Below are positions 12,742 through 13,070 of a stretch of 64,000 bases of DNA, piece after piece. Within the stretch, counting starts at the first letter, position 1. Every line of letters begins with the position of its first letter. A program made the translations under genes and the position numbers. The stretch comes from Meiothermus sp. (lineage in GTDB: Bacteria; Deinococcota; Deinococci; Deinococcales; Thermaceae). The stretch is taken from assembly GCF_026004055.1 (NCBI RefSeq), contig NZ_BPIJ01000001.1:1302001-1366000 (forward strand), read 5' to 3'. The notes beneath the pieces are model-generated. The model worked only from the letters and a program-made list of their open reading frames with translations. It was not told the origin of the DNA and searched no databases.

Positions 12742-12819
12742 CTCCTACCGCGCGGGATTTGGGGCGCTTTTTGGTAGGAGTTTTGCTAGAGCAAAACCCC
12801 CTACCAGACGTTCTTTTAT
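12742..12819 (-). promoter_or_regulatory. Expression platform of the SAM riboswitch (SD sequestration)
   Basis: The metY SD GGTAGGAG (12742-12749) is fully complementary to CCTCCTACC-type bases at 12773-12780 on the same RNA. Those bases can instead pair with GGTAGGGGG (12797-12805) in a 14-bp hairpin with one bulge and a TCTA loop (12773-12805), leaving the SD free. Further up, ATAAAAGAAC (12810-12819) is perfectly complementary to the 5' strand of the aptamer P1 stem (13023-13032). No T run follows the hairpin, so control of translation initiation is more likely than termination. Confidence 0.7.
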
Positions 12820-12850
12820 GACTGGAAGGGGGTACGGCTTGTGCGTTCCC

Positions 12851-13031
12851 TTCTCTTATCTTTCCCAACGGCCAAGCTTTGCCTAGCTCTGAAGGTTGTG
12901 TGCCTACAACGCTTCTGCCGTCGGGCCGGAATTAGCACCTTGCAAAAAGGCTTCTGGTGATGATCAGAAGCTTTTTGTGGGTTGCTGCGACTTCACAGGG
13001 CCGAATCCCTCCGCCGCTCTGGATAAAAGAA
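12851..13031 (-). ncRNA. SAM-I (S-box) riboswitch
   Basis: Read on the minus strand, the core elements appear in order: CCAGAGCGGCGGAGGGA, GGCCCTGTGAAG, CAGCAACC and GGTGCTAATTCC. The P1 stem is TTCTTTTATC (13022-13031) with GATAAGAGAA (12851-12860), 10 bp with one G-U. P3 is extended by a hairpin (AAAAAGCTTCTG with CAGAAGCCTTTTT), making the aptamer about 181 nt. It lies upstream of metY-metX, so S-adenosylmethionine should shut down methionine synthesis. Confidence 0.93.
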
Positions 13032-13070
13032 CATTCAGATTGTGGCCGCGCCCCGGCGCGGATAAGTGTG

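Follow-up and report, generated by a model that had tools for sequence, protein, structure and literature searches.

A candidate dual SAM-I OFF switch with alternating strands upstream of metY-metX in Meiothermus

The metY-metX genes in the window, the whole 64,000-nt stretch of Meiothermus DNA analyzed here, are most likely preceded by a dual SAM-I OFF switch (probability roughly 0.55), in which a chain of alternating strands would couple an intrinsic terminator with the hiding of the Shine-Dalgarno (SD) sequence. The evidence for this switch consisted of the sequences themselves, their complementarity, conservation and coevolution, and two predicted folds.

Organization of the leader and the SAM-I aptamer

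The elements on the minus strand were ordered as a promoter-like element, a 16-nt module, the SAM-I aptamer, an expression platform of approximately 100 nt, the SD, metY, and metX.

13071..13099, minus strand: sigma-70-like promoter TTGACA-17-TACACT (consensus scan, 10/12)
13046..13061, minus strand: 5' module CCGCGCCGGGGCGCGG, a self-complementary hairpin at the presumed 5' end (pattern counts)
12853..13029, minus strand: SAM-I aptamer (RF00162) with enlarged P4, 71.9 bits
12742..12749, minus strand: SD GGUAGGAG, 6 nt before the metY ATG at 12735
11443..12735, minus strand: metY, O-acetylhomoserine sulfhydrylase (TIGR01326, 642 bits)
10257..11396, minus strand: metX, homoserine O-acetyltransferase (NF001209, 354 bits versus a cutoff of 331)

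The transcript probably starts at approximately 13064, and TTGACA...TACACT-like elements were also seen in the leaders of relatives. The presence of a SAM-I riboswitch upstream of metY, as given in the initial annotation, was confirmed by the match to RF00162, which at 71.9 bits exceeded the gathering score (44.4) and extended over the full model length (model positions 1-108). The conserved core letters and the helices P1-P4 were found in the alignment together with two non-standard pair marks, and the leader would be expected to bind SAM. The methionine/SAM gene context of SAM-I riboswitches was provided by metY and metX. These two genes stand in the place of the polyamine genes that, according to the available part of its description (PMC10853860), lie downstream of a spermidine-sensing SAM-I variant. 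The window also contained a glycine riboswitch aptamer (RF00504) at 58336-58421 on the minus strand, with 60.8 bits.

Strands of the expression platform

The strands between the aptamer and the SD, with those of P1, were as follows.

13022..13032, minus strand: 5' strand of P1, common to P1 and the anti-P1 pairing (sequence and RF00162 match)
12848..12860, minus strand: 3' strand of P1 plus S0, GAUAAGAGAAGGG (sequence; fold)
12822..12833, minus strand: X ACCCCCUUCCAG, proposed partner of S0 (ON) or Y (OFF) (folds; X:Y swap test)
12810..12819, minus strand: anti-P1 AUAAAAGAAC, within the X:Y loop (complementarity, shuffles, swap test)
12796..12807, minus strand: Y CUGGUAGGGGGU, an SD-like decoy (complementarity; folds)
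12790..12796, minus strand: U-tract UUUUGCU after X:Y, a possible terminator tail (U counts; window strength scores)
12773..12787, minus strand: 3' arm of the Y:anti-SD hairpin, AGCAAAACUCCUACC, its last 8 nt being the anti-SD (complementarity, shuffles, coevolution test)

The pairings read in the initial annotation were reproduced. GTTCTTTTAT at 13032-13023 was perfectly complementary over 10 bp to ATAAAAGAAC at 12819-12810, the anti-SD CTCCTACC (12780-12773) matched the SD GGTAGGAG (12749-12742) as a perfect 8-mer, and the Y:anti-SD hairpin comprised 14 pairs with one bulged G in both the sequence reading and the predicted fold. When the 111-nt platform was shuffled with its dinucleotides preserved, an anti-P1 run of 10 nt was reached in only 3 of 5000 shuffles, and an anti-SD:SD run of 8 nt in 5 of 5000. 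Anti-P1 at 12819-12810 represents the alternative pairing competing with P1 that characterizes SAM-I attenuators. The SD was located approximately 100 nt downstream of P1, and not in the 3' strand of P1 as in the direct translational type of SAM-I.

Strand X, absent from the earlier account, was located between the aptamer and anti-P1. S0 is the GAAGGG at the 3' end of P1 and can pair with the CCCUUC of X; the pairing of X with Y contains one U-U mismatch, with anti-P1 sitting in the loop between the two strands. Purine-rich and pyrimidine-rich strands thus alternated in the order S0, X, Y, anti-SD, and SD, and two sets of pairings between neighbors can be drawn, namely S0:X and Y:anti-SD with the SD free, versus P1, X:Y, and anti-SD:SD. 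Of the two-level switch proposed earlier, the competition for P1 and the alternate freeing and hiding of the SD were retained, but the chain contained more steps than the two stated.

Predicted folds and proposed mechanism

Folding of the window leader by ViennaRNA with P1 forced gave X:Y together with anti-SD:SD, while forcing anti-P1 gave Y:anti-SD with the loss of the anti-SD:SD helix. The minimum free energies of the P1- and anti-P1-forced folds were close to each other, at -135.2 versus -134.0 kcal/mol at 37 C and -86.4 versus -85.9 kcal/mol at 55 C. In the unforced full-length ensemble at 55 C, anti-P1 had a probability of 0.93 and P1 of 0.04, indicating that the model without ligand prefers the ON side and that a stabilized P1 would turn it. 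At the same temperature, the corresponding values were 0.99 and 0.01 for the RNA ending just before Y, and 0.22 and 0.62 for the RNA ending at Y. Forcing P1 in the full leader at 55 C gave X:Y a probability of 0.98. The openness of the SD at 37 C was 0.00 with P1 forced and 0.38 with anti-P1 forced; in the model, the SD was hidden when P1 formed and more accessible when it did not, as in translational SAM-I switches. The fold model deals with secondary structure only, excluding SAM, tertiary contacts, and kinetics.

In the proposed mechanism, P1 of the SAM-bound aptamer would hold both of its own strands and leave X free to pair with Y once Y is transcribed. X:Y and the U-tract would then serve as an intrinsic terminator, and in the transcripts that read through, Y would already be taken, so that the anti-SD would pair with the SD and block translation (OFF). 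Without SAM, anti-P1 would capture the 5' strand of P1, X:Y would be barred because anti-P1 lies between X and Y, and Y would pair with the anti-SD to leave the SD freer (ON). The binding of SAM, the direction of the switch, the termination at the U-tract, and the blocking of the ribosome are what we infer here.

Conservation and coevolution of the strands

SAM-I matches were detected in all 18 Meiothermus genomes and in 99 of the 111 genomes of the order. A leader of the window type was present in every one of the 18 Meiothermus genomes, standing before metY in 17 of them and before metX in one. The chain was also found with different letters in 26 of the 27 genomes of a sister genus in the same family, probably Thermus (g4), the exception being a 65%-complete genome, and elsewhere in the family such leaders numbered one in g5, two in g2, and three in g3. 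The complementarity across 12797-12819, on whose presence in close relatives the initial annotation had staked its reading, was kept in the homologous leaders. In one Meiothermus leader, L040 (genome G007), metY was missing downstream of the switch, and a visually identified 27-codon ORF overlapped the start of metX as ATGA, as if the control of the SD were handed to metX through translational coupling.

Among the 82 SAM-I leaders of the family, 50 passed a motif filter that had been written after viewing the Meiothermus leaders, and all counts out of 50 are conditional on this filter; the 32 dropped were class-ii leaders and leaders of other genes lacking the full strand order. The 50 included L061 (genome G042, g3), which precedes a gene other than metY, shows the order P1, X, anti-P1, and Y without the 5' module and GCGCCCC, and had its Y set by hand. 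With P1 forced in the RNA ending at Y, X:Y had a mean probability of at least 0.68 in 50 of 50 leaders. The loss of X:Y under forced anti-P1 follows from topology and carries no evidential value. Forcing anti-P1 instead of P1 raised the mean openness of the SD from 0.23 to 0.47 at 37 C and from 0.29 to 0.57 at 60 C, with an increase in 47/50 and 50/50 leaders, respectively. With P1 forced at 37 C, pairing of the SD with the linker stayed below 0.5 in 10 of the 50 leaders (L010, L017, L027, L031, L034, L036, L037, L061, L081, and L086), seven of which were among the 18 Meiothermus leaders, and Y:anti-SD or another fold prevailed there. In the model, the first step (X:Y) is robust, and the second (hiding of the SD) is not predicted at equilibrium in every leader. 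In nearly all of the sister-genus leaders, X:Y stayed dominant in the model once Y existed, even with P1 unforced, which means that switching there must be kinetic or that the energies are wrong.

Coevolution was examined by a swap test, in which the duplex energy of the strands of one leader was compared with that of strands swapped from other leaders. As swaps among related leaders are not independent, the resulting counts are not probabilities: the cognate strands gave the better duplex in 237 of 306 swaps for anti-P1 and the 5' strand of P1, in 344 of 472 for X:Y, and in 1404 of 1832 for anti-SD:SD, with the anti-SD chosen anew for each swap. The value of 535 of 920 for Y:anti-SD was not counted as support, since an anti-SD chosen by its own SD biases the comparison. 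S0:X was also tried as a coevolving helix and rejected; the strands are complementary, but their own partners were better in only 75 of 296 swaps, and the model was not rested on this pairing. By this test, coevolution is supported for anti-P1, X:Y, and anti-SD:SD, and unsupported for the 3' strand of P1 with X. Matched changes could also be followed individually. P1 CUCUUAUC was matched by the anti-P1 AGAGAAC in L019, L038, and the sister genus, and P1 CUUUUAUC by AAAAGAAC in the remaining Meiothermus leaders, with no change in the 3' strand of P1. UUUUGCU/AGCAAAA was replaced by UUUUACU/AGUAAAA in L027, and CCCCUUCU/AGAAGGGG was found versus CCCCUUCC/GGAAGGGG within the sister genus. A gapped MAFFT alignment of 25 platforms from g4 and g5 went out of register between Y and the anti-SD, and no pair counts were drawn from it.

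The conservation of the U-tract, as well as the formation of X:Y in all 50 leaders under forced P1, would also agree with attenuation as the sole output, in which X:Y with the U-tract is the terminator, anti-P1 is the antiterminator, and anti-SD:SD is a by-product of the SD-like Y. However, a terminator has no need of an anti-SD, and anti-SD:SD was kept as the letters changed, the cognate strands being better in 1091 of 1246 swaps between genera (anti-SD chosen anew) and z being below -1.64 against shuffled linkers in 34 of 45 leaders. We regard attenuation alone as improbable, and the dual switch as the better account of these strands.

The U-tract and intrinsic termination

At least four U were found in the seven bases after Y, skipping a leading C, GC, or AG, in 49 of the 50 leaders, versus 17% U in the leaders overall. 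In the sister genus, the tract was an unpaired loop whose sequence took 12 different U-rich forms across 26 leaders. The three X:Y hairpins folded from this genus (L051, L052, and L065) had energies of -28.5, -28.8, and -30.0 kcal/mol. In Meiothermus, the tract could alternatively serve the Y:anti-SD stem. Four Meiothermus leaders were seen without a full A-run partner for the U run, namely L035, L039, and L040, in which the 3' arm was rebuilt, and L019, in which the A run was broken; all four kept at least three U (three to four). The X:Y hairpin of the window itself was GC-rich, with -18.9 kcal/mol and the tail UUUUGCU. When hairpin and U-tract were scored together in a crude way, it was exceeded by only 4 of the 49 crude gene ends in the window; its score was reached by 15 of the 600 100-nt segments drawn at random from the window and by 1 of 200 shuffles of the platform. 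A terminator scan with a loop limit of 8 missed X:Y, the loop of which is longer.

Intrinsic termination at X:Y is likely in the sister genus; in the window itself it is plausible, with a weak terminator. The U-rich tract in the loop of the sister-genus leaders and the hairpins of -28 to -30 kcal/mol make a SAM-dependent stop before metY a live expectation. The initial annotation had read the control as likely translational rather than terminating. The control of the SD was supported; the contrast with termination was not, as X and Y form a GC-rich stem in the OFF fold, with a U-tract after it.

What remains of that account, with X added to it, is a switch of translation only, in which the same chain operates, X:Y does not terminate transcription in Meiothermus, and SAM acts solely through hiding of the SD. 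The perfect 8-bp anti-SD:SD pairing and its coevolution would fit such a switch, as would the shortness of the U-tract in the window and an X:Y stem interrupted by a U-U mismatch and closed by a long loop. It would be further in line with the second SAM-I copy of the same genome (L002, C1:1558667-1558816), located before a metY paralogue with 42% identity; in this copy the 3' strand of P1 includes the SD, as in the direct translational type, and there is no terminator. On the other hand, the U-tract was retained even where it was unpaired, the strong sister-genus hairpins carry U-rich tails, and for 7 of the 18 Meiothermus leaders the equilibrium folds did not predict hiding of the SD. Translation-only control is therefore rated as rather unlikely, although it is the most serious competitor of the dual switch.

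The 5' module

The 5' module has a complement beside the SD, as given below.

12748..12767, minus strand: 3' module GCGCCCC...GCGCGG, complementary to the 5' module (folds, counts, duplex test)

The exact 16-nt sequence of the 5' module occurred once per genome in 17 of the 18 Meiothermus genomes, always at the leader of the window type, and the leader of the 18th (L018) had one base changed. The module was present in 48 of the 50 leaders, and the complement GCGCCCC between Y and the SD in 36 of them. With anti-P1 forced at 55 C, the module paired with the linker in all 45 of the 50 leaders that were evaluated (0.37-0.86), while hardly any such pairing was seen in the sister genus with P1 forced, except in L086. 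In a nested fold, pairing of the module with the linker excludes anti-SD:SD. Against shuffled linkers, the duplex had a mean z of -2.3 and was below -1.64 in 31 of 43 leaders, failing in the other 12, including L019 and L083. The 5' module may be a clasp holding the ON state, a putative extra layer of the switch. Insertions of approximately 45-70 nt were observed between the GCGCCCC...CGCGG module and the SD in L010, L031, L033, L036, and L037, with the module intact.

GC-rich leaders pair easily, and the failure of S0:X in the swap test, together with that of the 5'-module pairing in 12 of 43 leaders, might suggest a conventional SAM-I leader that depends solely on P1 and a single sequestering hairpin, with the other pairings being coincidence. 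The chance levels of 3/5000 and 5/5000 for the anti-P1 and anti-SD runs argue against this, as does the strand order, which was preserved in all 18 Meiothermus genomes and in 26 of the 27 from the sister genus, and coincidence of this kind appears very improbable beside the dual switch.

Simpler platforms in the family

In g2 and g3, class-ii leaders such as L088 had the same first strands, with anti-P1 in the hairpin loop; in these the SD and Y are one and the same strand, after which come a U run and the start codon. In L088, the SD is contained in the hairpin of the X:Y type, with A and U5 after it, indicating that a dual hairpin exists in the family. The SD pairs directly with X in f4 leaders such as L057. 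Relatives of the second copy L002, such as L012, had a three-strand platform instead.

Discussion

The form found in the window would have a natural origin in such a simple dual switch to which a second anti-SD and SD were added. We tentatively propose a design of the Thermaceae in which one decision of the aptamer would govern both a terminator and the hiding of the SD, the 5' module would act as the ON clasp, and the long form would have arisen from an L088-like switch with the old SD left as the decoy; this wider proposal is a possibility held with some doubt. Expression platforms show little conservation and lend themselves poorly to comparative study. The present one was traceable across genera, with its pairings kept as the letters changed, beside simpler relatives sharing the first strands, so that the way in which a riboswitch platform grows could be retraced and put to the test. 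The platform would further illustrate how a thermophile couples a terminator and SD control to a single SAM aptamer. Among the open-access papers searched, none was found to describe a SAM-I platform of Thermus or Meiothermus.

The attenuating SAM-I riboswitches of Firmicutes (S-box, RF00162) share with the window leader the aptamer and the competition of P1 with an alternative pairing, and their OFF logic and their hairpin with a U-tract formed together with P1 would match those proposed for the window leader. The usual S-box antiterminator takes the 3' strand of P1, whereas anti-P1 of the window takes the 5' strand, and an anti-SD/SD pair follows the terminator-like hairpin. The thiM TPP riboswitch of Escherichia coli operates by anti-SD/anti-anti-SD logic, and is alike in this respect, but it has fewer alternating strands and no terminator hairpin containing a decoy SD.

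In Xanthomonas campestris, SAM-I Xcc works mainly at the level of translation, where it masks the SD of a methionine operon, and additionally senses uncharged initiator tRNA (PMC7270179). It resembles the window leader in combining a SAM-I aptamer before methionine genes with SD hiding, which is predicted for the window leader, and differs in that no decoy-SD relay is described in the available part of that report (PMC7270179). Platforms with dual attenuation of transcription and translation, in which one hairpin gives both outputs, were described in general terms by Barrick and Breaker in 2007, where, in the accessible portion of the paper, Thermus-group riboswitches are mentioned in passing only (PMC2258182). 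L088 corresponds directly to this category, one ligand-controlled hairpin governing termination and the ribosome-binding site; as far as the category is set out in that portion (PMC2258182), the ribosome-binding site lies in the 3' arm of the terminator, whereas in the window the hairpin and the SD are separate and linked by the decoy SD and the anti-SD. The aptamer and its use are known, and the expression platform appears to be new in form.
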